Positions 23,747 through 45,555 of a stretch of 46,664 nucleotides of DNA are shown piece after piece; position 1 is the stretch's first letter, and each line of letters opens with the position of its first letter. The stretch covers positions 1 to 46,664 of the forward strand of contig JALHMG010000041.1 of the NCBI GenBank assembly GCA_022844135.1, given 5' to 3'. The translations under genes and the position numbers were made by a program. The notes under the pieces were generated by a model. It had not been told where the DNA came from. It made no database searches and saw nothing but the letters and a program-made list of their open reading frames with translations. Source of the stretch: Lysobacterales bacterium. Lineage in GTDB: Bacteria > Pseudomonadota > Gammaproteobacteria > Xanthomonadales > SZUA-5.

Positions 23747-25210
23747 CTACTCGAAGCCATTGGCAAACACGCCGTTGTTGCCATTGCGCATGATCAGTAC
23801 CACGTCGTCGACCTCGTCGGCGAGCATCATGTCGAGATCGCCGTCGTTGTCGATGTCGTAGAGCGAGGCGCAGGAGGCGTTGGCGGTGGCCATGATCTGG
23901 CTGATCTGGGTGAAACCGCCGACACCGTTGTTGCGCAGCACATACCAGCGCGAGGCGCCGTAACTGGACGTCACCCAATCCAGATCGCCATCGCCATCGA
24001 GATCGCCCAGATCGCTGGCTACCATCTGGCCGTTGAACGCATACGTTGTTGCTGCCGATAAACCGCCGCTGCCATTGCCGAGCAGGATCGCGCCGTTGTT
24101 GCTTTGGCCGTTCACCGACGCTACGTCGAGGTGGCCGTCGCCGTTGACATCGCCGAGCACGAGTTTCCACAGCAGGCCGCCGCCTGCGACGTTGGCGCTG
24201 CTGGTGAAGGAGCCATTGCCGTTACCGACGAGTACGATCACGCGGTTATCGTTGCGCGTGCCGACCACCAGATCCATGATGCCGTCGCTGTTCATATCGC
24301 CCGTCGCCAACGCATATTCGCCGTTGCCGCCCGAGTTGAAATCGACGCGATTGCCAAACACGCCGCTGCCGTTGTTGGTGAGGATCGAGAGCGTGTTTCC
24401 GATCTCGGTGGCGACCACCAGATCGCTATCGGCATCGCCGTCGATATCCAGCGCTGCGATGCCATGCGGCGTATCGGCTACGGGCACTTGCGCCAGCACA
24501 TTGAAGCGGCCGTTGCCCAAACCTAAGGCCACCGAAATCGAATCGCTGCTGGTATTGCTGGTGACGATGTCGATCAAGCCATCGTTGTTGAAATCGCCGA
24601 GCTCACTGGGACTGGCCTCCAATCCGATCGCCGGTGGCGGCACCAGCACCGGACCGAGCAGACCCGTGCCATCGGCGCGATTCAGCATCACGCGCAAGTC
24701 GGCGCTGATTTCGTTGATCGCCACGTAGTCGACCCAGTTGTCCCGATTGAGATCGGCAAACGCGCCGCCGTACAGCCTGGTGAGCGCAGACGAAGTGCGC
24801 ACCGAGACGTTGTCGATCTGGGTGAAGCTTGCAGTCGCGGTGCCAGCGCGCACCGTGAACGAGTAGCCGTAGCCAGCCTGGCGAAGCGGCGTATTGTCGG
24901 CGCCGCGCACGCTATTGGCCAATTGGATCCCGACTACCTCGCCTGGGAAGAAAGCTTGCGCTGGCACGAAGTTCAGCCGCGTATTTCCGGCGCTGAAACT
25001 CAAGGTGCCGGCCACCGGACCGCGCTGTTGGCCGAACACACGAAAACTCAGCGCAGTGATCGTTGTCGGATCCAGCGGGCGATCGAAGTCGATGCTGAGC
25101 GCTACGTCTGGCGCCTGGTTGAGGGCATTGCGCGCCGGCAAGTGGCTGGATACCGAAAGTGCGTGCGCACAAGGCGCCAGAAAGAGCGAAAGCAGAACGA
25201 TCAGGCGCAT
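23747..25210 (-). CDS. Secreted seven-repeat VCBS/FG-GAP propeller protein with Ig-like domain
   Basis: From the ATG at 25210 it has 487 aa with a signal peptide (MRLIVLLSLFLAPCAHA). Residues about 20-125 look like an SbsA-type Ig-like domain (F-D-R-P-L-D-P-T-T-I). Then come seven calcium-loop repeats of D-x-[ND]-x-D-G type (such as GDFNNDGLIDIV, GDVNGDGHLDVA, GDLDGDGDLDWV and YDIDNDGDLDMM), enough for a closed seven-bladed beta-propeller. It ends GVFANGFE, the same terminal pattern as the FG-GAP protein at 40.5 kb, possibly a sorting tag. It is extracellular or at the surface, and the ligand is unknown. It is probably followed in transcription by nothing, since the next gene is convergent. 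Confidence 0.87.
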   Translation of the reverse strand: MRLIVLLSLFLAPCAHALSVSSHLPARNALNQAPDVALSIDFDRPLDPTTITALSFRVFGQQRGPVAGTLSFSAGNTRLNFVPAQAFFPGEVVGIQLANSVRGADNTPLRQAGYGYSFTVRAGTATASFTQIDNVSVRTSSALTRLYGGAFADLNRDNWVDYVAINEISADLRVMLNRADGTGLLGPVLVPPPAIGLEASPSELGDFNNDGLIDIVTSNTSSDSISVALGLGNGRFNVLAQVPVADTPHGIAALDIDGDADSDLVVATEIGNTLSILTNNGSGVFGNRVDFNSGGNGEYALATGDMNSDGIMDLVVGTRNDNRVIVLVGNGNGSFTSSANVAGGGLLWKLVLGDVNGDGHLDVASVNGQSNNGAILLGNGSGGLSAATTYAFNGQMVASDLGDLDGDGDLDWVTSSYGASRWYVLRNNGVGGFTQISQIMATANASCASLYDIDNDGDLDMMLADEVDDVVLIMRNGNNGVFANGFE

Positions 25211-25313
25211 CTTGCATCTTCCCCGCGACCGGCTTGCGCCGACGCATTGGCTGCCCCCTGCCGATATAGATTCGAGCAAATGCCGATCTGCAAACCGTGT
25301 TTACGCGCACGCT

Positions 25314-30849: not shown

Positions 30850-33800
30850 ATGCCGAAGAATATTTCTGATAAACCGCTCCTTGTGCCGCAAGTGATGGTC
30901 TCCAGCACCTTCACGGATCTGACGGTACATCGGAACGCCTTGATCCTAGCCATCGGCAAACACGACATGCATCCCGTGGGCATGGAGTTCAGCGATGCGA
31001 AACTTAACGGAGATGTGATCGACGCCTCGCTCGCCATGGTGGCGAAGAGCGCCGCATACATCCTGATCATCGGCCGCAAGTATGGCCAGATGCCCGAGTG
31101 TCCGAAGCGCAATCCCGAGGAGTTGTCCATCACCGAACTGGAATACCGTGAAGCGGTTAGATTGAAGCGTCCTGTGCTCTTGTTCCTGATGGGAGACAAA
31201 CACCCTCGCATCGAATCGGAAATAGAACTCGACCCCGACAAACGCGCGAAGCTCGCCGCCTTCCGTGAGCTGGCAAAGAAGTCTGCTCCTGGCTCAGCCG
31301 TGAACCGCGTTTATGGCACCTTCGAAAGCCTGGACCAGTTCAAGGACATCATCGGTGCTCCGCTGTCCGAAATGCAGCGCCAGTTGGAACCAAGACCATC
31401 CGTCGATCCTGCAGCGTCCACTGACGCAACGTCTTCTGACTCACTGGCCTCTATCCCGAAGCCCCCCGCCTTCTACGCCGAACCCCACTACCTCGGCTCG
31501 CACAAGTTCGTCGGACGCGCGCGGGAACTCGAAGAACTCACCGACTGGGCCAATCCCGCCGACCCCACGAATCTCCTGCTCTTCGAAGCCATCGGCGGCA
31601 ACGGCAAGAGCATGCTCACCTGGGAGTGGACGAAAAACCACGCCCTCGCCGCGCGCCCGGCGGACAAGCCCTGGGCTGGGCGCTTCTGGTATTCGTTCTA
31701 CGAGCGCGGCGCCATCATGGCCGATTTCTGCCAGCGCGCCCTTGCCTACATGACGGGTCGCCCGCTGGAGGACTTCGCGAAAAGGAAAACCGCCGAGCTG
31801 AAGGACGAACTGCTCGCCCAGCTTCATGCCAAGCCGTGGCTGCTCATCCTCGATGGCCTCGAGCGCATCCTCGTGGCTTACCACCGCATTGATGCCGCCG
31901 AAGTCCGCGATGAGGAGGCCAACGCTCCCACCGACAAAATCGTCAACCGCAACCCCTGCGATGCCATCCGCGACGAGGACAACGACCTGCTCCGCGCCCT
32001 CGCCGCCGCCGCCCCGTCGAAGCTCCTTGTCAGCTCCCGCCTCACACCGCGCGTACTGCTCAATCCCTCCGGCCAGCCCATCCCCGGCGCGAAGCGCATC
32101 ACCCTCCCCGGCCTGCGCCCGCCGGATGCCGAGGCCCTGCTGCGCTCCTGCGGCATCGAGGGGAACAGCGACGCCATCCAGAGTTACCTCACCGCCAACT
32201 GCGACAACCACCCGCTGGTCATCGGAATCCTCGGCGGCCTCATCGCGAACTACCTGCCCGCGCGCGGCGACTTCGACGCCTGGTCCGCCGCCACCGACGG
32301 CGGAGCCGCGCTCGACCTAGCCCGCCTCGATCTCATCCAGCGCCGCAACCACATCCTTGAGGCTGCGATCCAAAAGCTGCCCGATGCCAGCCGTCAGCTG
32401 CTCTCCACGCTCGCCCTGCTCACCGACGCTGTGGACTACGAGACGCTCAAGGCCTTCAATCCCCATCGGCAGCCCGACCCAAAGAAGCTACAAGACACCG
32501 TCAAGGACCTGGAGCAGCGCGGCTTGCTGCAATGGGATGGCCGCATGCGGAAGTATGACCTGCACCCCGTCGTCCGCGGCGTCGCCTCGGGCGCGATGGC
32601 GGCGGCGGACCGCGAACGCCACGGCCAGCGCGTGGTGGACCACTTCACCGCCCAGCCCCACCGCCCCTACGAGGAAGCCGAGACACTGGAGGACGTGCGC
32701 AGCGGTCTGCACGTCGTCCGCACCCTGCTCAAACTCGGCCACTACCAGCAGGCGGCGGATGCCTACTCCGGTGCTTTGTCTGAGGCGCTCGAGTTCAACC
32801 TCAATGCCTATGCCGAAACCTTGTCCTTGCTGAAGCCCTTCTTCCCCAACGGATGGGGCATACTGCCGAAGGAGGTGGCAGCCAGCGACAGTTCCTATCT
32901 GGCGAATGACGCAGCGATAGCCCTGGAAAATTGCGGAGAACCGGCGGCCGCCCTCGCCGCTTACGGCGCTGCCCTCCGAGCGGGCTTGAACACCGAGGAC
33001 TGGACCAACACGGCGACTCGGCTCCGCAACATCTCGGGCAATCTGATGGGCCAGAATCGGCTCGCCCAAGCGCTCCGTGCGGATTCCCTCGCCTTGGAGG
33101 TCGCCGCCTTGAGCGAAAACAAGCAAGGCGTTTTCATGGGCCGCCTCTTCCTGTTCGCCGACCAGTCGAGGCTGGGCCAATGGGCGGAGGCAGCCGCCAC
33201 CTGGCGCCTGCTCGACCCCATGGGCCGCGCTTGGGACCGCGCCGTCTATCGGCCCGGATGGGCGGAAGGGTATTACGCACAGTTTCACTTCTGCCAGGGC
33301 AACTTGCAGGAGGCGCACCTAGCCGAGGCACAGCGCCTGGCGGCCCAGGGCAAAGACCGCGGCATCATCCGCGCTCTCCACCGTCTGCGAGGCGACTGGC
33401 GGCTCACGCAAGGCGAGTGGGCGCTGGCGGCGGCGAGCTACCAGGAGGCCGTGCGCCTGGCCCGTGATACCCGATCGGTCATTGATGCCGACTCCGAGAC
33501 CGGCCTTGCCCTGGCCAAGCACCGCCTTGGCCAGCTCACCAATCCCCGCGAGGAAGCTGAGCGACTGGCCCAACTCCGCGACCCCGCACATCGCCTCCTC
33601 GCCCGGCTCTGGCTCGCCCTCGGCGACACCGCGCAAGCGAAGCACCACGCCCTCGCCGCCTACCAATGGGCCTGGGCCGACGGCGAGCCGTATGTGAACC
33701 GCTACGAACTCACCCAGACCACCGCACTGCTCCAGCAACTGAACGTCCCCATCCCCAACCTCCCGCCCTACGACCCCACCAAAGACGAGAAGCTGCCGTG

Positions 33801-33855
33801 GGAAGACGAGGTGCGCGCCGCCATCGAAAAACTGCGCGCGGAGAAGGAAGATTGA
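30850..33855 (+). CDS. DUF4062-STAND ATPase-TPR protein (candidate anti-phage defence gene)
   Basis: This 1001-aa cytoplasmic protein starts with a DUF4062 domain (about residues 10-120: V-M-V-S-S-T-F-T-D-L-x-x-x-R and Y-I-L-I-I-G-x-K-Y-G), a TIR/SIR-like fold. It continues with a STAND-type ATPase (F-V-G-R-A-R-E-L; Walker A G-G-N-G-K253-S; Walker B L-L-I-L-D335-G-L-E-R; sensor-like L-L-V-S-S-R-L-T-P-R; winged helix to about residue 590). The last ~400 residues are TPR-like helical repeats. Such tripartite proteins act as NTP-driven switches in which the repeats sense a trigger and the N-terminal domain is the effector; several related STAND proteins defend against phage. The ATG is used despite a weak ribosome site. 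It sits at the border of the mobile region, as defence genes often do. Confidence 0.85.
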   Translation: MPKNISDKPLLVPQVMVSSTFTDLTVHRNALILAIGKHDMHPVGMEFSDAKLNGDVIDASLAMVAKSAAYILIIGRKYGQMPECPKRNPEELSITELEYREAVRLKRPVLLFLMGDKHPRIESEIELDPDKRAKLAAFRELAKKSAPGSAVNRVYGTFESLDQFKDIIGAPLSEMQRQLEPRPSVDPAASTDATSSDSLASIPKPPAFYAEPHYLGSHKFVGRARELEELTDWANPADPTNLLLFEAIGGNGKSMLTWEWTKNHALAARPADKPWAGRFWYSFYERGAIMADFCQRALAYMTGRPLEDFAKRKTAELKDELLAQLHAKPWLLILDGLERILVAYHRIDAAEVRDEEANAPTDKIVNRNPCDAIRDEDNDLLRALAAAAPSKLLVSSRLTPRVLLNPSGQPIPGAKRITLPGLRPPDAEALLRSCGIEGNSDAIQSYLTANCDNHPLVIGILGGLIANYLPARGDFDAWSAATDGGAALDLARLDLIQRRNHILEAAIQKLPDASRQLLSTLALLTDAVDYETLKAFNPHRQPDPKKLQDTVKDLEQRGLLQWDGRMRKYDLHPVVRGVASGAMAAADRERHGQRVVDHFTAQPHRPYEEAETLEDVRSGLHVVRTLLKLGHYQQAADAYSGALSEALEFNLNAYAETLSLLKPFFPNGWGILPKEVAASDSSYLANDAAIALENCGEPAAALAAYGAALRAGLNTEDWTNTATRLRNISGNLMGQNRLAQALRADSLALEVAALSENKQGVFMGRLFLFADQSRLGQWAEAAATWRLLDPMGRAWDRAVYRPGWAEGYYAQFHFCQGNLQEAHLAEAQRLAAQGKDRGIIRALHRLRGDWRLTQGEWALAAASYQEAVRLARDTRSVIDADSETGLALAKHRLGQLTNPREEAERLAQLRDPAHRLLARLWLALGDTAQAKHHALAAYQWAWADGEPYVNRYELTQTTALLQQLNVPIPNLPPYDPTKDEKLPWEDEVRAAIEKLRAEKED

Positions 33856-34752: not shown

Positions 34753-35214
34753 TTACATGCCCAAGACCCATAAGCATTTACTTTCCTTCGTTTTTGATTG
34801 GATGAACTCACACATCTTCTCGCCGCACTGATGAACAGCCGGGGCGAGAACTTTGGTTTCGACGGCGGTCCAGATGTCCTGCGCGAATATCGACGCGTAA
34901 CGTGAGAAAAGTAGCTCCCGTGTGGGCTTCGTCGCTACGCCGTCCAGGAATGCACGGAGTTCTTGAACCAGTCGCTCAATTTCTGCTTCTCCAAACCGCT
35001 GAAAAGAGAAGTAATCGAAGGACTCGCTTGCAGCATGAAAACACTCAGCGAAGAAATCAAAGGCAGCATCCCTTATAAAAAATGATCCCGGAAGCCAACA
35101 GGCATGCGCGCGCGGAAGCTCTTTGGGATGAAACTCAAAATACGACGAGCTATCACGGGCCTCAGGTCCTGGCAGGGGTACAAATACCGAAAGATCCACT
35201 ACGCCGTAGCTCAT
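34753..35214 (-). CDS. Cassette gene: hypothetical protein, 153 aa
   Basis: This soluble protein of moderate size (MSYGVVDLSVFVPLPGPEAR, an aromatic-rich middle, and a C-terminal helix with C-G-E-K-M-C-E-F) has no motif I recognise. The ATG lies four bases from an attC-like core and its stop is next to another attC, which is the defining layout of a mobile integron cassette. The gene is AT-richer than the chromosome genes to the left. Confidence 0.6.
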   Translation of the reverse strand: MSYGVVDLSVFVPLPGPEARDSSSYFEFHPKELPRAHACWLPGSFFIRDAAFDFFAECFHAASESFDYFSFQRFGEAEIERLVQELRAFLDGVATKPTRELLFSRYASIFAQDIWTAVETKVLAPAVHQCGEKMCEFIQSKTKESKCLWVLGM

Positions 35215-35217
35215 GAA

Positions 35218-35307
35218 GCCGAACGCCGCGTTAAGCCGCCGCGGTGCCGAGCGCCACGGTCAATGCGAAGGGCCTGTTCCGCAATCGGCTTGATTGATGG
35301 GTTGAAC
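35218..35307 (-). repeat. attC-like recombination site 2
   Basis: GTTCAAC (R'' core) starts it at 35307 on the minus strand. The arms TCAAGCCG and CGGCTTAA pair, and the site ends CGGCGTTCGGC, a close relative of the GCGTTRRRY core. It is about 90 bp. Its R'' core is the exact junction with integrase copy 1. Confidence 0.65.
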
Positions 35308-35413
35308 CAAGCCGCTACGCGGCAGGAACAGCCATCGTAGCTGAAAAATCCCGGCCATCGGCGCACCTTTTCTCGCGCACGCAATCTCGCGTGCGCACAG
35401 AGGGAGAAGGACG
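35297..35413 (+). mobile_element. IS91-like element end, copy 1 (non-coding leader)
   Basis: Homology with the two other copies begins at GATGGGTTGAACCAAGCCGC and continues through a GCCGC-TAC-GCGGC hairpin to the GCGCACGC-AATCTC-GCGTGCGC hairpin and a GGGAGAAGGA ribosome site. The junction GTTGAAC|CAAG matches the GAAC/CAAG target preference known for IS91. No transposase gene is left in the window. Confidence 0.55.
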
Positions 35414-35504
35414 ATGGAAGCATCGGAGCGGGTCCGTTTCGAGGCGCCGTATGGACTACATCTTAGGGCTTTGAAGCTGCAAGGCAAAGCGCCTCAGACC
35501 GTCG
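35414..35504 (+). pseudogene. Tyrosine recombinase fragment, copy 1
   Basis: Only the first 30 codons remain (MEASERVRFEAPYGLHLRAL, then KLQGKAPQT), the start of the SAM-like core-binding domain. The frame then joins GTGTGGGCGCTTACCC, the right end of the palindromic RAYT-type element. It is non-functional. The same leader precedes copies 2 and 3. Confidence 0.75.
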
Positions 35505-35534
35505 TGTGGGCGCTTACCCAGGGCTTGCGCCCTA
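35504..35534. mobile_element. Palindromic RAYT-type element, right-end fragment
   Basis: TGGGCGCTTACCCAGGGCTT followed by GCGCCCT matches the right end of the complete elements at 37.7 and 39.8 kb. The remaining element and its left end are missing, so it marks an old insertion and deletion inside integrase copy 1. Confidence 0.65.
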
Positions 35535-35775
35535 TGCACCGCAGAGCTGGACGACTCCTCGAATCGATAACGATTTGGGTCTCTTTACCGTTCGTGCTAC
35601 CGCGCAGTCCACCATGGCCTACGCGACGCGAAAGTCGGGGGTGCGAGCCAGCTCGATGGAAGTCCGGTTAGGCAACGGGGTCGAGCCTTCATTCGAATTG
35701 CGATCTCAATGCCCTTGCGCTGCGCCCACTCGGGGCTTTCATGCTCGGGGGGCGATTGCACAGAATCATGAGAGG

Positions 35776-36177
35776 TTAGGTTTGCCGCGCGAATCCGAAC
35801 CGCGCTCTGTACGCGTACGATGCTCCAGGTATGCCGATGAATATGAGGTACAGAACCGCGTTTAGCACTGAAGGCTGCGCTCGAGAGCCCGATATGGCGG
35901 GACCAGCCATGAGCTCATGGCCCAAGTAAGCGATTCCAACGAGAAATGTCAGCGTTCCGATGATGCTTCCTACAAACTGGCGGGCCCGTCCTGTAGTTAC
36001 GCACGCGACAGCGATCAGAATGCAAAATACACCGAACCCCACGACGCCCACCGGATGCAGGGAGTCCTTTCCCACCAGTACCATCATCAAGCCAAACAGC
36101 GCCGCGATTGAGCCTAGAAAGATCCGTGCGCCGAGGCTCAGACCTTCGTTGATGGTTTCGTTAGCCTGTTCGTACAC
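35776..36177 (-). CDS. Cassette gene: small membrane protein
   Basis: The GTG at 36177 gives 133 aa starting (M)YEQANETINEGLSLGARIFL; the ATG at 36201 adds eight residues that overlap a transposase relic. Hydrophobic helices lie at about residues 14-33, 41-59, 65-82 and 104-120. The end reads P-S-V-L-N-A-V-L-Y-L-I-F-I-G-I-P-G-A-S-Y-A-Y-R-A-R-F-G, a pattern I recall from a common integron-cassette membrane protein family of unknown function. Its TAA overlaps ACCTAAC, the R'' core of an attC that is cut soon after. Confidence 0.65.
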   Translation of the reverse strand: MYEQANETINEGLSLGARIFLGSIAALFGLMMVLVGKDSLHPVGVVGFGVFCILIAVACVTTGRARQFVGSIIGTLTFLVGIAYLGHELMAGPAISGSRAQPSVLNAVLYLIFIGIPGASYAYRARFGFARQT

Positions 36178-36189
36178 AGCAACCTCTCT

Positions 36190-36382
36190 CGGCAAACCCA
36201 ACGCGCAGCTGGAGCGATGGGTCTACACCATGATCACCAAAGGCGAGCAATACGTGGATCAAGGCCAAGCCTACTTCGAACAACAACACCGAGGCCGCGC
36301 CATCCGCAACCTCATGCACCGCGCCGCCCAACTCGGCATGACCCTCGTTAACCTTGCCGTCGAACAGGCCAAAACGGCATGA
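36190..36382 (+). pseudogene. Transposase-like C-terminal fragment
   Basis: About 63 codons read N-A-Q-L-E-R-W-V-Y-T-M-I-T-K-G-E-Q-Y-V-D-Q-G, then Y-F-E-Q-Q-H-R-G-R-A-I-R-N-L-M-H-R-A-A-Q-L-G-M and a stop. This looks like the C-terminal helices of an IS transposase; I cannot name the family. It is intercalated between two cassette genes and abuts the 5' end of the membrane-protein gene, so it probably replaced that gene's original upstream site. Confidence 0.4.
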
Positions 36383-36392
36383 GCAAAATCAA

Positions 36393-36830
36393 CTACTTGG
36401 CGGTTGTTTCCTGAGAGGCGGCATACGGCGCTGGCATTTCTCTGCAGACGGTTACCTCGTCTGCCCACCACTGGCCTCGCTCGAACGAGCAAAGCAATAG
36501 CCGTGCTGAACCACAAGAGACCTCAAGAACTTGGTTGTCTGCTACCACGAAGTTGAGGGCGACGTCTTTACCAAGAGAATCTGTCCAGGTGGCGGACGCA
36601 GAAACGTCGTGCTCTACAAGCGCTGCATCAGGGATGAAATGGGTTGCCTCGCTGAGGCCGATGGCGTACTGAACAGGTTCATCGACCCACGAAACGAACA
36701 CTCGGCGCCCGCCCTCGAACGTTAGAACTAGCTCGCCTCCAAAATCGTGCACTCTGTTGTGCGACGCATCTTGAAGCGCTTCCTCCTCACCATCCAAGAG
36801 CCTGTAAGAGACCGCGACAAGGATTGGCAT
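36393..36830 (-). CDS. Cassette gene: hypothetical protein, 145 aa
   Basis: The ATG at 36830 is directly against an attC-like core (CAGCGTTAGCT), so I start there (MPILVAVSYRLLDGEEEALQ). The frame continues far upstream but only through repeat sequence. The soluble beta-rich body has F-G-G-E-L-V-L-T-F-E-G-G-R-R-V-F-V-S-W-V and later W-T-D-S-L-G-K-D-V-A-L. No family is recognised. GC is lower than in the chromosomal genes. Confidence 0.6.
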   Translation of the reverse strand: MPILVAVSYRLLDGEEEALQDASHNRVHDFGGELVLTFEGGRRVFVSWVDEPVQYAIGLSEATHFIPDAALVEHDVSASATWTDSLGKDVALNFVVADNQVLEVSCGSARLLLCSFERGQWWADEVTVCREMPAPYAASQETTAK

Positions 36831-36920
36831 GACAGCTAACGCTGCATTAAACCGCGCCGGCCACAGGACCGGTTTTGGGGTAGAAACAGATCCGGCGTCC
36901 GCTTGAATGATGGGTTGAAC
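36831..36920 (-). repeat. attC-like recombination site 3
   Basis: Minus-strand GTTCAAC (ending at 36914-36920) opens it. The arms TTCAAGCGG-A-CGCCGG and CCGGCGC-GGTTTAA pair imperfectly with extra bases, and CAGCGTTAGCT closes it immediately before the ATG of the 145-aa gene. It is about 90 bp. Confidence 0.65.
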
Positions 36921-37026
36921 CAAGCCGCTACGCGGCAGGAACGGCCATAGTAGCTGAAAAGTCCCGGCCATCGGCGCACCTTTTCTCGCGCACGCAATCT
37001 CGCGTGCGCACTGAGGGAGAAGGACG
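36907..37026 (+). mobile_element. IS91-like element end, copy 2 (non-coding leader)
   Basis: This is nearly identical to the leader of copies 1 and 3, starting GATGGGTTGAACCAAGCC and ending with the GCGCACGC/GCGTGCGC hairpin and GGGAGAAGGA site before the recombinase ATG. The left junction again falls on the attC R'' core. Confidence 0.55.
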
Positions 37027-37481
37027 ATGGAAGCATCGGAGCGGGTCCGTTTCGAGGCGCTGTGTGGACTACATCTTAGGGCTTTGAAGCTGCAAGGCAA
37101 AGCGCCTCAGACCGGCGATGGTTATGCCCGCGCGGTGCGGCGCGTGGCGGCGTTTTTCGACCGCTGTCCAGATCGATTGTCGGCCGAGGACTGCAAGAAC
37201 TACTTCGCGTGGCTCATCGACACGCGCTCCTGTGAGCCTCGTGAAAATCGAGCGCTGCGGTTTGCAGTTCTTCTACCGTCACGTGCTGGAGCGCGAGTGG
37301 CCGTGGGTCGAGATGGTCAAGGCGCCGGTGGTGAAGTCGCTGCCCGATGTGCTCACGCTGGATGAGATTGCGCGCATCGTGCTGGCCACGCGCGAGCAAC
37401 GCTATCAGACGTTCTGGTGGACCACCTACAGCATGGGATTGCGCCTCTCTGAGGCGCTTAACCTGTGCCTGCAGGCGTAAA
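37027..37481 (+). pseudogene. Tyrosine recombinase, copy 2 (frameshifted, truncated)
   Basis: This is the longest copy. The first frame encodes the core-binding domain (MEASERVRFEALCGLHLRAL to WLIDTRSC). One extra base at about 37231 (CCTGTGAGCC against CCTGGAGCC in copy 3) shifts the frame, and the second frame continues K-I-E-R-C-G-L-Q-F-F-Y-R-H-V-L-E-R-E-W-P-W to L-P-D-V-L-T-L-D-E-I-A-R-I-V and T-T-Y-S-M-G-L-R-L-S-E-A-L-N-L. That contains the start of the catalytic domain with its first arginine (G-L-R-L-S-E). The remaining catalytic residues are lost at the palindromic element. The sequence looks like the integrase that accompanies IS91-type transposases and not like IntI. Confidence 0.75.
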
Positions 37482-37483
37482 GT

Positions 37484-37756
37484 GACAAGCCCCGCAGGGG
37501 CGCAATGAAATAGCCCAGGGCGCAAGTCCTGGGTAGGCTCGCCCGCGTCCGGGAGAGCCCCGAAAAGGCGAAACGATGTCGCAGCCGTTCGAGGAGGAAC
37601 TCGTGATCTCGACCAAGATCCAAAAGCCTGTTCTGGCCGGCCGCTTTCGCGACGTGCCGATCAGATTTCGCCCTTTCAGGGCTCGATCATGTGGGCGCTT
37701 ACCCAGGGCTTGCGCCCTGGGCTATTGCATTGCGCCCCCTCGGGGCTTGTTCTTGC
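37484..37756. mobile_element. Palindromic RAYT/IS200-type element relic, copy 1
   Basis: The left end CAAGCCCCGCAGGGGCGCAA with AGCCCAGGGCGCAAGTCCTG is mirrored at the right end (CAGGGCTTGCGCCCTGGGCT, then GCGCCCCCTCGGGGCTTG), giving inverted ends of about 50 bp. The interior holds a short frame MSQPFEEELVIS, a decayed start of an IS200-like (REP-associated) transposase. It interrupts recombinase copy 2. Confidence 0.65.
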
Positions 37757-37890
37757 ACACCGGAAACAACCACGCTTCCTTTTTCGGCCTGCAACTATTG
37801 ACCTGCTCACAGCCAACCGCTACCGCGCCAGCCAACAGCCAAAGCGCGAAATTCTTTCCCCTATAAAGATCGCTCTGCGAGAACGGGCTT

Positions 37891-37944
37891 GTTCAACCCG
37901 GGATCAGATCGCGGCTTTGCGCGATCTATCCCTGTTCGTTAGAT
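37891..37944 (-). repeat. attC-like recombination site 4
   Basis: This is the cleanest site, 54 bp. On the minus strand it opens with ATCTAAC (RYYYAAC) and closes with GTTGAAC (GTTRRRY). The arms GGGAT-A-GATCGCG and CGCGATC-TG-ATCCC pair with unpaired extra bases. The opening core lies inside the last codons of the lipoprotein gene. Confidence 0.75.
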
Positions 37945-38375
37945 TTGCCCACGTTAAGCAATAAGAGATCGTTCTTTACGCACGTAAGCTTATACTTGCC
38001 CGGGCGCTCAAAGACAACCCATTTAACGGTCTCGTAAGAATGGATCTCGGCTGGACAACCGTACGTAATTTCGTACCTTCCAGGCTGTACCCACATCGGG
38101 GATTCAATAGACTGATAGTCAGTGACAAATAACCCGCCCCGATCCCCGCCGATACTCCAGACCTCCACCGATTCCCATTTAATGACATCTAAGACAACTT
38201 CGGCGTAATCTTCCGAGTTGTCTGGTTTGACGGTTAGCACCGGATTAAACTTTGCTAGTTCTGACCGAAGGAGGCTACCAGAAGTGGGCTTGGGAGGACC
38301 TGCAGCGCCTTTCGTTACTTGACCGGTGCAAGCGGCTATAGGTATCGCGAAGAGAATCAAAGCGAATCGTTTCAT
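37926..38375 (-). CDS. Cassette gene: lipoprotein
   Basis: The ATG at 38375 gives 149 aa with a lipobox (M-K-R-F-A-L-I-L-F-A-I-P-I-A-A-C). The mature part has about 130 residues with beta-strand character (V-E-V-W-S-I-G-G-D-R-G-G-L-F-V, W-V-Q-P-G-R-Y-E-I-T-Y-G, P-G-K-Y-K-L-T-C-V). I do not recognise the family. It is membrane-anchored in the envelope. The 3' end overlaps attC site 4, and the gene is AT-richer than its chromosomal neighbours. Confidence 0.65.
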   Translation of the reverse strand: MKRFALILFAIPIAACTGQVTKGAAGPPKPTSGSLLRSELAKFNPVLTVKPDNSEDYAEVVLDVIKWESVEVWSIGGDRGGLFVTDYQSIESPMWVQPGRYEITYGCPAEIHSYETVKWVVFERPGKYKLTCVKNDLLLLNVGKSNEQG

Positions 38376-38510
38376 TGGCAAATCTATCGAGACTGTAGAA
38401 AAAGCACTTGAGATCCCGAGCGCCAGTTACTTGGGCGCATCGAGCGCATGTTCGGTCGAAGGAACCCAGCAAAGCGGCGGTCCGCTCGAGCATGAAATTG
38501 GCCGCCAACA

Positions 38511-38700
38511 CTAACGCCGCTGCTGTTTGAGCGAGGCCAGCCTGCGGCAAAAATACTCGCCGCGCCAGCGGACCAGGGCCTTTGCAAGTAATACAAACCC
38601 AAGCATGAATGTGGCTCCTTGCAAAGCGAAACTCAATGGTCTCAGTTCGCTTGACGCTAAGTCGGATCGGAAGTTGAGACATGCAGACAAGATCGCAAAA
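38511..38700 (-). pseudogene. Possible frameshifted tail of the zinc-ribbon cassette gene
   Basis: In another frame this segment encodes W-F-F-A-I-L-S-A-C-L-N-F-R-S-D, then a hydrophobic helix (L-S-F-A-L-Q-G-A-T-F-M-L-G-F-V-L-L-A-K-A-L) and a basic end, and stops in CGGCGTTAG, an attC-like core. It may be the original C-terminus of the neighbouring zinc-ribbon protein after a frameshift, or a separate remnant. Confidence 0.35.
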
Positions 38701-38989
38701 AACCAGAGGCGACCAACGCCGCAACGATTGTGGTGGGCTCGGGTTCTGGTGATATGGGGAGAAGTTCGGCTTCCGGAGCCCAGCCGACGGGTACCATCGA
38801 TTGCAGGTGGGCGTAGGAGTGACAGCTTTGACACCACTCCCACAAACCTCGACGCCCGTTGTGCCAGCGGTAGAGCTGCGCGTGGCCGCACTCGGGACAG
38901 ACTGAGTCAACGCGGATCTTGGTTGGCGATGCCGAAAAGGCGGAGCGCCACGCAGCCCAGTGCTCTTCGGAAACGCTGTGCCACTCCAT
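38657..38989 (-). CDS. Cassette gene: zinc-ribbon protein
   Basis: This 110-aa protein starts at the ATG at 38989, five bases from an attC-like core (a start at 39010 would lie inside the attC). It reads MEWHSVSEEHWAAWRSAFSA, then V-C-P-E-C-G-H (first pair) and W-C-Q-S-C-H (second pair) about 20 residues later, a four-cysteine zinc ribbon, followed by an acidic proline-rich tail. A similar small zinc-ribbon protein is, as I recall, a common cassette product of unknown function. The 3' end may be frameshifted: a hydrophobic tail lies in another frame. Confidence 0.6.
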   Translation of the reverse strand: MEWHSVSEEHWAAWRSAFSASPTKIRVDSVCPECGHAQLYRWHNGRRGLWEWCQSCHSYAHLQSMVPVGWAPEAELLPISPEPEPTTIVAALVASGFLRSCLHVSTSDPT

Positions 38990-38994
38990 TTGCG

Positions 38995-39066
38995 ATCTAA
39001 CGTTGGACATAACCGGCGGGCAAAAAGCGCAGCTTTTTGACCGTCCGGTTGATGGACGGGTTGAAC
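38995..39066 (-). repeat. attC-like recombination site 5
   Basis: The minus strand opens with GTTCAAC (39066-39060) and ends ACGTTAGAT (38995). Outer arms contain ACCGG pairs and the centre is a perfect AAAAAGC-TGC-GCTTTTT hairpin. It is 72 bp. It directly precedes the zinc-ribbon gene and adjoins recombinase copy 3. Confidence 0.7.
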
Positions 39067-39172
39067 CAAGCCGCTTCGCGGCAGGAGCGGCCATCGTAGC
39101 TGAAAAGTCCCGGCCATCGGCGCACCTTTTCTCTCGCACGCAATCTCGCGTGCGTAATGAGGCAGAAGGACG
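39057..39172 (+). mobile_element. IS91-like element end, copy 3 (non-coding leader)
   Basis: The same leader as copies 1 and 2, beginning GACGGGTTGAACCAAGCC and ending in a degenerate version of the CGCACGC/GCGTGCG hairpin before a GGCAGAAGGA ribosome site. The junction is again at the GTTGAAC core of an attC. Confidence 0.55.
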
Positions 39173-39584
39173 ATGGAAGCATCGGAGCGGGTCCGTTTCG
39201 AGGCGCTGTATGGGCAACATCTTAAGGCTTTGAAGCTGCAAGGCAAAGCGCCTCAGACCGTCGATGGATATGCCCGCGCGGTGCGGCGCGTGGCGGCGTT
39301 TTTCGATCGCTGTCCAGATCGATTGTCGGCCGAGGACGTCAAGAACTACCTCGCGTGGCTCATCGACACGCGCTCCTGGAGCCTGGTCAAAATCGAGCGC
39401 TGCGGTTTGCAGTTCTTCTACCGTCACGTGCTGGAGCGCGAGTGGCAGTGGGTCGAGATGGTCAAGGCGCCGGTGTTGATCTTGACCGACACTTGGTGTC
39501 AAGTCGCTGCCCGATCTGCTCACGCAGGGTGAGATCGCGCGCATCGTGCGGGCCACGCGCGAGCGCCGTTATCAGACGTTCTGA
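39173..39584 (+). pseudogene. Tyrosine recombinase, copy 3 (inactivated by small insertion)
   Basis: The core-binding domain is intact in frame (MEASERVRFEALYGQHLKAL to V-L-E-R-E-W-Q-W-V-E-M-V-K-A-P-V). At about 39475 three bases of copy 2 are replaced by 25, containing a GACAC-TTG-GTGTC hairpin. The frame is lost, although the following DNA still matches the catalytic-domain start. The alignment ends at CAGACGTTCTGA, where the palindromic RAYT-type element begins. Confidence 0.75.
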
Positions 39585-39863
39585 GACAAGCCCCGCAGGG
39601 GCGCAATGAAATAGCCCAGGGCGCAAGCCCTGGGTAGGCTCGCCCGCGTCCCGGAGAGTCCTGAAAGGGCGAAACCGATGGCGCAGCCGTTCGCGGAGGA
39701 ACTCGTCCATGTCGTGCGCTGGACCAAGAACCGAGAGCCTGTTTTGACCCATGCGGGGCGTGCCGATCAGATTTCGCCCTTTCAGGGCTCGATCATGTGG
39801 GAGCTTACCCAGGGCTTGCGCCCTGGGCTAATGCATTGCGCCCCTTCGGGGCTTGTTCTTGCG
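39584..39863. mobile_element. Palindromic RAYT/IS200-type element relic, copy 2
   Basis: It has the same inverted ends as the 37.5-kb element. The interior frame at 39678 reads MAQPFAEELVHVVRWTKNRE, close to the N-terminus of IS200-like REP-associated transposases (M-x-Q-S-x-x-x-x-x-V-H-x-V-F-S-T-K-N-R-E-P). The catalytic histidines and tyrosine are missing. It sits at a different position in its recombinase host than copy 1, so the insertions were independent. Confidence 0.65.
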
Positions 39864-39880: not shown

Positions 39881-39932
39881 CGCGGCAGGAGCGGCCATCG
39901 TAGCTGAAAAATCCCGGCCATCGGCGCACCTT
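39881..39932 (+). mobile_element. IS91-like leader fragment, copy 4
   Basis: CGCGGCAGGAGCGGCCATCG, then TAGCTGAAAAATCCCGGCCA and TCGGCGCACC match the leader of the three recombinase copies. Both ends are cut: the left by the RAYT-type relic and the right by the next hairpin repeat. Confidence 0.65.
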
Positions 39933-39938
39933 CCCATC

Positions 39939-40125
39939 GCTTTGGCAAGCGCAGCTTTTGGATCGCCGAGTTGCACTCGGCGCTTTTCGTTCCGAGTTTC
40001 CTGGTGCCACTTGCAAGCCCGCTTGCCGAGTTGAACTCCGCGTTCCAGCGAAGTGCCACTTGCAAGTCCGCTTGCCGAGTTCAACTCGGCGTTCCAACGA
40101 AGTGCCGAAACTAATCGCTGGCAAC
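39939..40125. repeat. GCTTTGGCAAGCGCAGCTT repeat, copy 1, with 49-bp internal duplication
   Basis: This starts CGCTTTGGCAAGCGCAGCTT and contains a CGCCGAGT-TGC-ACTCGGCG hairpin (39964-39982). Two tandem 49-bp units (40004-40052 and 40053-40101) follow, the second with a GCCGAGTT-C-AACTCGGC hairpin. Related copies lie at 42.65 and 45.17 kb. The 375 bases from here to the FG-GAP gene contain no gene, only a near-repeat of CGGCTATCCC at about 40377 and 40404. Confidence 0.75.
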
Positions 40126-40500
40126 AACGTTGGCGCCGCGCTGCGCGATGTGTCCGAAGCGCGACTCCTCGGCGTCGAATGCGCTGCGCGCGATGGCATC
40201 GCATCGGCTTCGATGGGTGATGCCCGGTCTGGCCTGGGAACGCCGACGTCCTCCTCGGCACGTATGTCAGGGATCGGGAACAACTCTCTCTGCACTTCCA
40301 GCCCTGCCCGCGATCGGCCACAGCTGCTGGCTGTCTGGCGACAGGCGGCGTCAGTGGCGCAGGTACTGCAACAAATCGGCTATCCCCAGTTCATGCGACA
40401 AGTCGGCTATCCCCCATTCATGGGACGACACCCGGCAGCGCCGATTGGACACTTTGCCTGTTGCTTTGCGCGACGCTTCCTATCCCTGCTGAGAACAACG

Positions 40501-42474
40501 ATGACCGCGTTATCGATGCTGCGCCATGGCGCATTGTGCTTGTGCTTAATCGTATCCGTCCCCGGCCAGTCGCGTGCGGCGGTCGAGGAACTGCCCACTC
40601 AGGTGCTGGAGTCCATCGCCGCGCGTGAGTACCACGCGAGCGTGCATGCCAGCGAACTTCAGGCGCCGAACCGAGCGCAGGGTTTTCGCACCAAGTTTCG
40701 CGAGCACGGGGTCGAGCTTGTCGACCGGGATCAGGCGGCGCAGCCTCTGCTTCGACTGAGCCTCGTGCAATGGGGCCGCGTCGATCGCCTGCAGTCGGCT
40801 GAACCTGGCGTTCTCATTGCGGATGGGGTTCGCGTCGAACGCCGCAGCAAGTCGCTGACCGAGTGGTATATCAACTCCTCGGACGGCCTCGAACACGGCT
40901 TCGATCTTGCCCACTCGCCGCCCGGTCGCGGCGAACTTGAGTTTCATCTGCAGAGCGATCGTCCAGCGCATCTGGTGCACGCCGATCTGATCGAATTCGG
41001 CAGTGGCGACGACAAGCTGCGCTATAGCAAACTCAAGGTATGGGACGCTGACGGCCGAATCTTGCCGGCGCACATGCGCGTGAGTGGTACGCATCGTGTG
41101 GTGATCCGTGTCGACGATGCCGGCGCACGCTATCCGGTCACGATCGACCCGCTGCTGCAGCGCGCTGCCGACATCGTCCGCTCCGGAACCCAGAGCGGCG
41201 CTCAATTTGGGGTTCGCATTGCCAACGCCGGCGACGTGAACAACGACGGGATAGACGATTTGGTCGTCGGTGCCTTCCTCTGGGACAACGGCCAAACCGA
41301 CACCGGCGCGGCGTTCGTTTACACCGGTCCGAGTTTCAATAACCCCGTCTTACTGAGCCTGACCCAAGCGGGGGCCGCTTTCGGCGGCGGCGTCGGCGGT
41401 GCCGGCGATTTGAACAACGATGGTTTCGACGATGTCGTGATCGGCTCACCAAGCTTCGATGGCGCCGCAGGCACCAACTCGGGCGCGGCCTTCGTGTACT
41501 TCGGTGGTTCGGGCGCCTTCGATCCCACGGCCGATGCGACCATCAGCTCGCCGTTGTCGGGGGCGAACATGGGCTCTGCGGTGCGCGGCGTGGGCGATGT
41601 GAACGGCGACGGGATCGATGATCTTGCGGTCGGTTTGTCGCGTTACAACCCCGGCGGCAGCCCCGACCAGGGCGCGGTCTTCATCTACTACGGCAGCACT
41701 AATTTCAACTCGACATCGGATGCGTTGCTCACCCTCAACCAGATGTCCGTCAATGCGGGCGCCGCGCTTGCCGGTGGCGATGTCAACGACGACGGAGTCT
41801 CCGACGTGATCGTTGGAGCGCCAGGTTATGAGTCAACGAGCGCTCTGGTCAATGAAGGCGCGGCGCTGGTGTTCTTCGGGGGCTCCGGCGCGATCGACAC
41901 GACGGTCGATGCCATTCTGCGCACAGCCCGGGCCAACGCCGCAGGCGGTAGTTCGGTCGCGACGGGCGACTTCAATGGAGACAATATCGATGACGTGATC
42001 TCCGGTGCCCCTCTGAATTCCGTAGCGATCAGCGAAGGCGGCACGGCGCAAATCTGGTTTGGTGGAACCGGTCCCTTCAACACCCTGGTCGATGTCACGT
42101 TTTTCGGCAATGCGGACTCTGAGGACCTCGGTCGTAGCGTCGCCGCCTTGCCCGACTTCAACGGCGACAACCGAGACGAGATAGTGGTTGGCGCGCCCGG
42201 TGCTGCCAACGCCAGCGGGCTGATCAGCGGCGCAGTCAAGCTCTACTTTTCCGCACCGAACGGATTCTCCTCCAACCCCAGTCTGGTGCTGCTCGGCACA
42301 CAGACCAGCGACATTTTTGGCACCACAGTGGCGACCGGACGCTTCAACAGCGACGCCCTGTACGACGTCGGCGTTGGCGAGCCTGGCGTCGACATCAGTC
42401 CGGGCGCAAACAACGGTGCCTTCCGTCTCTACTTTGGCCAGAGCGACGACGTCTTTCGAAACGGATTCGAGTAA
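40501..42474 (+). CDS. Secreted seven-repeat FG-GAP (integrin-alpha-like) propeller protein
   Basis: From the ATG at 40501 it has 657 aa and a signal peptide (MTALSMLRHGALCLCLIVSV to SRA). Residues about 25-225 form a beta-rich N-terminal domain ending H-R-V-V-I-R-V-D-D-A-G-A-R-Y-P-V-T-I-D-P. Seven FG-GAP repeats follow with calcium loops (GDVNNDGIDDLVVG, GDLNNDGFDDVVIG, GDVNGDGIDDLAVG, GDVNDDGVSDVIVG, GDFNGDNIDDVISG, PDFNGDNRDEIVVG and a weaker seventh), enough for one propeller. It ends SDDVFRNGFE, as does the VCBS protein at 23.7 kb. It is extracellular or on the surface; a binding role is likely but the partner is unknown. The 181 codons upstream in the same frame run through repeats and were excluded. 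Confidence 0.88.
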   Translation: MTALSMLRHGALCLCLIVSVPGQSRAAVEELPTQVLESIAAREYHASVHASELQAPNRAQGFRTKFREHGVELVDRDQAAQPLLRLSLVQWGRVDRLQSAEPGVLIADGVRVERRSKSLTEWYINSSDGLEHGFDLAHSPPGRGELEFHLQSDRPAHLVHADLIEFGSGDDKLRYSKLKVWDADGRILPAHMRVSGTHRVVIRVDDAGARYPVTIDPLLQRAADIVRSGTQSGAQFGVRIANAGDVNNDGIDDLVVGAFLWDNGQTDTGAAFVYTGPSFNNPVLLSLTQAGAAFGGGVGGAGDLNNDGFDDVVIGSPSFDGAAGTNSGAAFVYFGGSGAFDPTADATISSPLSGANMGSAVRGVGDVNGDGIDDLAVGLSRYNPGGSPDQGAVFIYYGSTNFNSTSDALLTLNQMSVNAGAALAGGDVNDDGVSDVIVGAPGYESTSALVNEGAALVFFGGSGAIDTTVDAILRTARANAAGGSSVATGDFNGDNIDDVISGAPLNSVAISEGGTAQIWFGGTGPFNTLVDVTFFGNADSEDLGRSVAALPDFNGDNRDEIVVGAPGAANASGLISGAVKLYFSAPNGFSSNPSLVLLGTQTSDIFGTTVATGRFNSDALYDVGVGEPGVDISPGANNGAFRLYFGQSDDVFRNGFE

Positions 42475-42651
42475 GGCTCCACTTGGAAATAAGCCACCAG
42501 CCGATTGAAAATTGACCATCAAAGCGCATGCGGGGCTTCCGTGGTGGACGGAGCCCCGATGTGGGTTCCGGAAGCGGCTGGAGGGCATCGGCGCTCAAGC
42601 CCATCGATTCGCAGCCCGTTGCCTGGTGCGCGTTCATCCGACGCTGACGAT

Positions 42652-42757
42652 TTGGCAAGCGCAGCTTGTGGAGCCGAGTTGCACTCGGCGCTTCTGGTTC
42701 CGAGTTTCCTGTTACCACAAGCTCGCTTGCCGAGTTCAACTCGGCGTCGGCACGCCT
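42652..42757. repeat. GCTTTGGCAAGCGCAGCTT repeat, copy 2
   Basis: TTTGGCAAGCGCAGCTTGTG with a GCCGAGT-TGC-ACTCGGC hairpin and, after a shortened middle, GCTTGCCGAGTTCAACTCGG. It lies in the 445-bp gap between the FG-GAP and beta-helix genes. The rest of that gap shows only a GGGGCT-CCGT hairpin near 42532-42557. Confidence 0.75.
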
Positions 42758-44317: not shown

Positions 44318-44412
44318 GACAAGCCTCGCAGGGGCGCAATGCAATAGCCAGGGCGCAAGCCCTCGGCAGGCTTTGCGGAGAAGCTCATCCACGTCGCGTT
44401 CTCCGTTGACTG
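44318..44412 (+). mobile_element. Palindromic RAYT/IS200-type element relic, copy 3 (left part)
   Basis: GACAAGCCTCGCAGGGGCGC with AGGGCGCAAGCCCTCGGC is the left end. It runs into F-A-E-K-L-I-H-V-A-F-S-V-D, a decayed IS200-type transposase start. The right end is absent. Confidence 0.55.
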
Positions 44413-45028: not shown

Positions 45029-45169
45029 AGGTCTTCCTGTGTGGCCAAGCTCAGGCTAAGCGGCCGCCGTTTAGGGATGTTTGGTCGAAGCAACCCAGCA
45101 GTGCGGCGGGCCCTTGAGCTTACTGTTGGGCTACGGTACTTGATGCGCATTTATCTGCCCGATGCCAGC
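45029..45169. other. Non-coding segment with a 33-bp match to 38.45 kb
   Basis: ATGTTTGGTCGAAGCAACCC at 45076 resembles ATGTTCGGTCGAAGGAACCC at 38448, followed in both by AGCA and a GCGGCGG run. Together with an AGCGGCCGCCGTTTAG stretch it may be a degenerate recombination site. No gene is seen. Confidence 0.45.
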
Positions 45170-45307
45170 GCTTTGGCAAGCGCAGCTTGTGGAACGCCGA
45201 GTTGCACCCGGCGCTGCTGTTCCCGAGTATCCTGGTGCCACTCGCAAGTCCGCTTGCCGACTTCAACTTGGCGCTCCAACCAAGTGCCGAAGCTGATCGC
45301 TGGCGAC
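45170..45307. repeat. GCTTTGGCAAGCGCAGCTT repeat, copy 3
   Basis: GCTTTGGCAAGCGCAGCTTG, then CGCCGAGTTGCACCCGGCG, GGTGCCACTCGCAAGTCCGC and GCTGATCGCTGGCGAC. It aligns with copy 1 over its whole length but without the 49-bp duplication. The following 250 bases to the diguanylate cyclase gene show no further feature. Confidence 0.75.
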
Positions 45308-45555
45308 AGTCCGGAAGAGATTCGAGACAAACGCAGCACCTCACATCCTCTGCCCAAGGCAGCTGGTTGCCGCGCGCAGTCGTCCGAGCTCGCCGCATGT
45401 CGCGGGCAGCCAGCGCCTGCCGCCCCACCGACGAGCTTACGCCGCGTCGGCCTGATCGCCGCCATCTGCGAAGGTCTGGCGTCGGTTGCAAATAGTGTGT
45501 GCAGAGTCGCGCGCCACCGTTCTCGCGTAGCAGGCTGGCTGTACTATCCGCGCCG

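Follow-up and report, generated by a model that had tools for sequence, protein, structure and literature searches.

Three copies of a repeat lie on the plus strand of the window, the whole stretch of 46,664 nucleotides analyzed here (positions 1 to 46,664 of contig JALHMG010000041.1, assembly GCA_022844135.1, from a Lysobacterales bacterium). Each copy starts with GTTGAACCAAGCCGC, has a left end of GTTGAAC followed by CAAGCCGC, and adjoins a different integron attC site (table 1). A sequence-only reading had recognized the three plus-strand copies, with starts a few bases off (35297, 36907, and 39057), and had described ∼115 bp of shared leader and recombinase sequence. This homology is common to all three copies but extends beyond the leader into the recombinase gene, reaching 35504 in copy 1, 37937 in copy 2, and 39583 in copy 3. 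Nor does it end at CAAG, as had been claimed, since the constant part includes GTTGAAC. The repeats are very probably a decayed IS91-family element that tends to insert at one point of attC, making one attC into two.

Complete relatives of the element are 2.2–2.3 kb in length. They consist of a leader of ∼75–120 bp, a gene for a tyrosine recombinase of ∼300 amino acids, an overlapping gene for an IS91-family transposase of ∼350 amino acids, ∼250 bp, and a conserved attC-like hairpin at the end. A protein scan of one genome per species yielded 24 loci, 14 of which (L061–L074) are at 44–79% identity; both genes are present at length in eight of the 14, and the remainder are truncated or cut by contig ends. 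Further copies are on plasmids and in additional genomes. The transposases of loci L062 and L096 have the zinc-binding and Y2 domains of the IS91 family (Pfam and NCBIfam models Y2_Tnp, 152 and 145 bits; Zn_Tnp_IS91; NF033538, 353 and 344 bits). The recombinases of the same loci have SAM-like and phage-integrase domains and match the model of the integron integrase (IntI), TIGR02249, with 142 and 154 bits, below its cut-off of 265. The matches split at approximately residue 185, where the extra domain of IntI would be, and judging from the sequences this domain seems to be missing. Our guess is that the recombinase has an accessory role in resolution or circularization. In a tree with labels assigned by hand, the bipartition between the element clade and the out-group is supported 100/100.

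The exact point of insertion is visible in a natural pair of sites. In RCS41_p, an IncC conjugative plasmid of Escherichia coli (L096/L109), a full-length copy lies between aadA1 and qacEdelta1, in the attC of the last cassette of a class 1 integron. The site is unbroken in R100 (...AATGTCTAACAATTCGTTCAAGCC...), while RCS41_p reads ...AATGTCTAAC, element, AATTCGTTCAAGCC..., such that the aadA1 attC is split between R'' (GTCTAAC) and AATTCG and no native base is lost. Because R100 has the unbroken site and RCS41_p the split site, the element is an insertion, and it is antisense to the cassettes. Cassette-type open reading frames (ORFs) between the window copies are on the opposite strand to the element, as are cassette genes beside it in L096, L097, and L101 (downstream); in some Photobacterium plasmids, genes located upstream share the element's direction. 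In genome G878, two full 2277-bp copies that are 98.99% identical over 2276 bp are in two different attC sites. The RCS41_p and R100 pair, together with the flanks scored below, upholds the earlier view of a mobile element with one orientation and one position in attC, and the full-length relatives with an IS91 transposase uphold its family assignment. The GAAC of the leader-end GTTGAAC, which had been taken for the target, does not occur in the native aadA1 site and is brought in by the element. It is element sequence, and the refutation that had been suggested, leaders found away from GTTGAAC-like sequences, therefore could not discriminate. The leader-end GTT (AAC on the other strand) could be element or duplicated target.

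R'' (RYYYAAC, in most cases TAAC or CAAC) is the target and lies at the transposase-proximal end. GTT, which is AAC in integron orientation, abuts this end in 30 of 33 cases (12/14, 11/12, and 7/7), all in ends located without conditioning on the flank. A list of right ends conditioned on GTT or GAT was kept out of this count, the count for the window's own genome left out one place that was a duplicate and two matches of only 18 and 26 nt, and L087, L089, L092, and L093 yielded no end. A covariance model, which itself favors AAC, located 38 further right ends in 35 fetched regions, with AAC in 34, GAAC in two, and mostly TAAC or CAAC. At natural empty sites of out-group Rhizobium copies, insertion is directly before GATTC and the left terminus is GATTG. 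In each lineage, the terminus repeats the first bases of the target, GTT here and GATT in Rhizobium. IS91 transposes as a rolling circle by means of two tyrosines, and its target tetranucleotide, GAAC or CAAG, abuts the oriIS end; we know of no target-site duplication by IS91. Our reading is that the enzyme of this element, in an IS91-like manner, may cut the same motif at target and terminus.

Both ends of the element resemble parts of attC. In integron orientation, the transposase-proximal end reads RAATAAGGATAGRTCGCG-loop-CGCGAYCTTATCC-spacer-GTTGRACAAGCC, an attC stem with an R' box, and the recombinase end (terIS-like) has GTTCRAC, an R'' box, after a small hairpin. Across 16 aligned right ends, an invariant AAC is followed by AA, the stem, and GTTG-AC with AGCC. 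The stem covaries: seven of 12 pairs have two-sided changes, 85.5% of cells are paired (no more than 42.2% when the structure is slid), and four of the five covariation measures exceed nearly all shuffles. In 16 of 20 elements, among them four of four with GTTGGAC, the R' and R'' cores of the ends complement each other exactly (three own-genome rows of this comparison were entered by hand), and the inner four R''/R' pairs always pair.

To score the preference for attC, each left flank was examined for an R' core with, in front of it, an arm complementary to the bases that come first beyond the insertion. When the core was defined strictly, a score of 22, the 99th percentile of ∼1500 random windows, was reached by 17 of 38 flanks. 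With a core that was loosened after degenerate cores had been missed, which tempers the comparison, 24 of 38 flanks score at least 20 (versus 9.1% for 3000 random windows and 7.3% for shuffled flanks) and 21 score at least 24 (versus 2.2% and 1.4%). These counts are further tempered by a lack of independence among the 38 ends, 10 of which are from the window's genome and a few of which are close relatives. Outside of the 38 are L061, L071, and L073, with left cores missing or at a contig edge, and L129, L133, L134, L137, and L138, in which the pattern was unmatched. Nine further ends add two that score (L183, in the window's genus, and L203), for a total of 26 of 47. Some low scorers, for example L099, L101, and the two C51 copies, are attC-like by eye. 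The flanking sequences suggest that the R'' edge of attC is strongly preferred by the element and is not obligatory. L061 lacks the left core upstream of its recombinase and instead has sequence that, by eye, resembles the start of a reversed group II intron, as though an intron had inserted into the R'' box of the element itself.

Several observations weigh against the reading of an IS91-family element that targets and doubles attC. Fourteen of the 38 left flanks are below threshold, no attC can be seen beside the left ends of L100, L128, and L131, and seven mini-copies in genome G623 score less than 20, two of them with GAAC targets. Ten flanks of such non-attC sites show no general enrichment of hairpins (median p of 0.33 and 0.63), and structure-guided targeting is therefore unproven; a hairpin rule for non-attC targets was not supported by the same 10 flanks. 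Right flanks deviate in one decayed copy of the window's genome and in two ends of L069 (GAT). Both sides of the element have GTT, or GATT in the case of the out-group, which fits a 3–4-bp target duplication that would make the motif shared by terminus and target trivial. An altered flank with an unaltered left core in L069, L195, and L196 speaks against such a duplication, but single mutations would also explain these flanks. The hairpin structure was taken from the same alignment as its covariation test, and the fifth measure, of further pair types, is not above shuffles (431/500). Three of the inner R''/R' pairs (AAC/GTT) never vary and thus provide no support for pairing, and the outer three are mostly unpaired. 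The element stem has its extra base on the arm opposite that of the native aadA1 attC and therefore may be a poor substrate for IntI. Lastly, no intact copy was found in the window's genome, in which the copies seen are decayed; one could sit in an assembly gap, and several contigs end inside copies.

The G623 mini-copies (L189, L190, L192, L194, L195, L196, and L202) retain both ends, and ∼100–320 bp separate the left end from the conserved segment of the right end. They are non-autonomous mini-elements, too short for either gene.

We propose that the element, by virtue of its Y2/HUH transposase and with the overlapping tyrosine recombinase, enters attC in antisense at the 3' edge of R'', directly after RYYYAAC. 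By analogy with IS91, its transposase-proximal end would be oriIS, and the HUH transposase would cleave a single strand after YAAC at both ends without duplicating the target. More tentatively, the internal GTTGRAC may base-pair with the RYYYAAC target in the manner of the guides of IS200/IS605 elements, whose transposases have one catalytic tyrosine. If this pairing holds, targeting of R'' would oblige an element to have R' beside its hairpin, and for this reason its end would resemble attC. The host R'' with the element stem and R' would form a first attC-like site that folds as a hairpin, and the element R'' with the rest of the host attC would form a second, in which the native stem is kept. 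Because its ends imitate the halves of attC, the insertion would turn one attC into two and the element would look like a cassette.

It is conceivable, though we think it doubtful, that the landed element is a working integron cassette with both attC sites as IntI substrates, that one-ended transposition attaches attC to neighboring DNA and creates cassettes, and that the internal GTTGRAC is a guide that pairs with R''. On contigs of the window's genome, no clean excision scar was found, with 11 of 12 near-complete stems continuing into the element body and the twelfth (L045) decayed; neither was one found along the 38 model ends (35 regions). Excision by IntI is therefore unsupported. A candidate scar in G878 (L180) looks on reading like a small internal deletion of the element. 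At another locus of G878 (L179), three element right ends occur in ∼2 kb, each followed by a short element-like stretch and then by differing sequence.

Alternatively, the repeats could be a gene cassette that carries IS91 and recombinase genes and was duplicated and shuffled by the integron integrase. The element does lie between two R' cores and its R'' (GTTCAAC) complements its own R' (GTTGAAC). However, R' is where IntI cuts, and a cassette moved by IntI takes along the attC following it, whereas the stem that travels here is at the other end and belongs to the transposon. Eleven of the 12 ends in the window's genome have this constant stem, on the transposase side, connected to the element body, and nearly all copies there have a different attC past the leader end (those of C22 and C4 are alike). 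The two near-identical G878 copies in different attC sites fit transposition rather than cassette shuffling, some copies are outside attC, and the window's genome has no integron integrase above the family cut-off. We reject the cassette reading because cassette genes are mostly on the other strand and the native aadA1 attC is split after R'' in RCS41_p, and we regard it as extremely improbable. Duplication of one cassette, which the sequence-only reading had allowed for, likewise conflicts with the constant stem, the varying attC beyond the leader end, and the split site.

An IS91-type element could also have a short YAAC target only, with no real preference for attC and with arrays simply permissive for survival. 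Non-attC insertions at NAAC occur and IS91 itself uses a short target, yet YAAC is estimated from base composition to occur tens of thousands of times per genome and 26 of 47 ends score where ∼9% are expected. Survival alone would also not favor R'' over other YAACs within cassettes, which is an argument rather than a count. We consider this explanation unlikely. Quite improbable is one in which the tyrosine recombinase, rather than the HUH transposase, integrates the element end into attC as an alternative integron integrase. Full copies do have an intact Xer/IntI-like recombinase that matches the integrase model, if below cut-off. Against this, the match breaks where the seemingly missing IntI domain would be, and the out-group, with the same gene pair, inserts before GATTC at sites that are not attC-like by eye. 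We favor insertion at R'' by the IS91-family transposase.

Features of the window are listed in table 1. Among its copies, the target box remains only at copy 2. The attC scores in the table compare with a background in which 4.6% of random windows reach 22; that of copy 1 is 0 under the strict-core score, and its R' core is degenerate (GTTCGGC).

Table 1. Element copies, attC sites, and likely cassette genes in the window.
Feature	Coordinates	Strand	Score and remarks
Element copy 1: left (recombinase) end, leader, and first recombinase codons	35301..35504	+	truncated (∼200 bp)
attC hit by copy 1, part beyond R''	35218..35300	- (integron orientation)	25.0
Element copy 2: both ends kept	36914..37937	+	1024 bp; interior deleted/frameshifted, transposase lost
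attC hit by copy 2, part beyond R''	36834..36913	-	27.0; also passes strict score
Transposase-proximal (oriIS-like) end of copy 2: attC-like hairpin	37891..37937	-	R'-like core GTTGAAC (minus strand)
Host attC R'' target box abutting right end of copy 2	37938..37944	-	ATCTAAC (plus strand GTTAGAT)
Element copy 3: left end, leader, and recombinase fragment	39060..39583	+	right end missing
attC hit by copy 3, part beyond R''	38995..39059	-	28.5; also passes strict score
Leader fragment without left core	39881..39932	+	52 bp
ORF between copies 2 and 3, likely cassette gene	37926..38381	-	lipoprotein-like by eye
ORF before copy 1, likely cassette gene	34753..35214	-	

The repeats are not chance similarities, because a blastn search of the whole genome found 14 places, 10 of which have a left end, with GTTGAAC in 10/10. 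One copy, on contig C1, apparently sits in the L' box of an attC. The IS91 transposase is present in this genome as three fragments only. The best match to an integron integrase in this genome is below the family cut-off and reads like a Xer recombinase; in the assembly as it stands, the cassettes are thus a cluster without an integrase. Among 150 other genomes near that of the window, a DNA query with the leader and recombinase gave four weak matches; beyond these, the right-end covariance model located eight ends in a genome of the same genus (G001). In G001, a second right-end subfamily (GAATAAGCTTAGATCGC...; L183, L184, L186, and L187) occurs beside the window's subfamily. The RCS41_p element has no match in 20,395 E. 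coli RefSeq records (complete genomes), none was found in a search of phages, viral contigs gave a single weak match at 22% identity, and an Rfam search of four loci returned nothing.

Other repeats and genes are present in the window. A ∼270-bp unit with inverted arms of 54–56 bp (ACAAGCCCCGCAGGGGCGCAAT...) is at 37485–37750 and 39586–39856, and in part at 44319–44349; it occurs inside element copies and elsewhere, and a similar unit is differently placed in the C22 copy. It looks like a repeat of the repetitive extragenic palindrome/bacterial interspersed mosaic element (REP/BIME) type or the miniature inverted-repeat transposable element (MITE) type. Dispersed repeats (GCCGAGTTGCACTCGGCGCTT... 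and GTGCCACTTGCAAG...) are at 39934–40126, 42638–42747, and 45159–45308. Two proteins with FG-GAP-like repeats by eye (40500–42474 and 23747–25279) both end in F(A/R)NGFE, perhaps a common C-terminal signal. Before the cassette cluster, a plus-strand ORF of 1001 amino acids (30850–33855) is by eye a possible STAND-type ATPase with repeats.

The papers cited from here on were available to us in part, and statements about them apply to the text seen. Closest to the element is an IS91 subgroup with an upstream tyrosine recombinase, comprising ISAzo26, copies in Rhizobium and Sphingomonas, and ISShvi3 (PMC9229058; known here by name only). Members have the same two genes in the same order, a Y2 transposase with a zinc domain, and a left end of the same build (GATTGAACGAAGCCGC in Rhizobium, at ∼37% recombinase identity, versus GTTGAACGAAGCCGC in this element); the left ends of Sphingomonas and Sphingopyxis copies are built as in Rhizobium. 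Rhizobium copies differ in that they insert before GATTC and not at the R'' of attC, and in a right end that is not attC-like by eye. The IS1111-attC group of the IS110 family likewise consists of insertion sequences that enter attC (PMC9229058; PMC12444791), but with unrelated proteins, a DEDD transposase, and RNA-guided choice of target (PMC11187229). The element, with a tyrosine recombinase and an IS91 transposase, does not belong to it, and we met no account of IS1111-attC elements rebuilding two attC sites. Group IIC-attC introns also enter attC, usually opposite to cassettes (PMC9229058), but do so by RNA-based retrotransposition and without a transposase. IS200/IS605 elements (HUH, Y1) have hairpin ends and choose cleavage sites by pairing with internal guides (PMC8266576); the likeness is one of analogy, and their guides are 5' of the hairpins whereas the candidate guide here is 3'. 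One IS91-like element beside an attC is mentioned in PMC9229058 and, going by this description, may well be a member of the family. IS1111 elements targeting attC are cited in PMC12444791, in text without the word IS91; PMC7923331 and PMC8876359 place IS91/ISCR near integrons, in text without attC insertion; PMC12901181 lacks the word IS91, and the match in PMC11023631 is to IS911. No account of an attC-targeting group within the IS91 family emerged from a full-text literature search, which covered neither subscription papers nor the pages of ISfinder.

The invaders of attC named in these papers are IS1111-type sequences and group IIC introns. Here, an HUH single-strand transposon of another superfamily very probably invades attC and rebuilds the site that it hits, and it is found in several proteobacterial lineages and, on a conjugative plasmid of E. 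coli, in a class 1 integron. This would explain how an IS91 element in an array can resemble a cassette, and bears on the annotation of cassettes, since an end of the element resembles attC. It also suggests a testable route by which DNA could gain attC. If guide pairing holds, targeting of attC and carriage of attC would be one property. If the landed element is a working cassette, it would provide a concrete answer to the question of how genes acquire attC.

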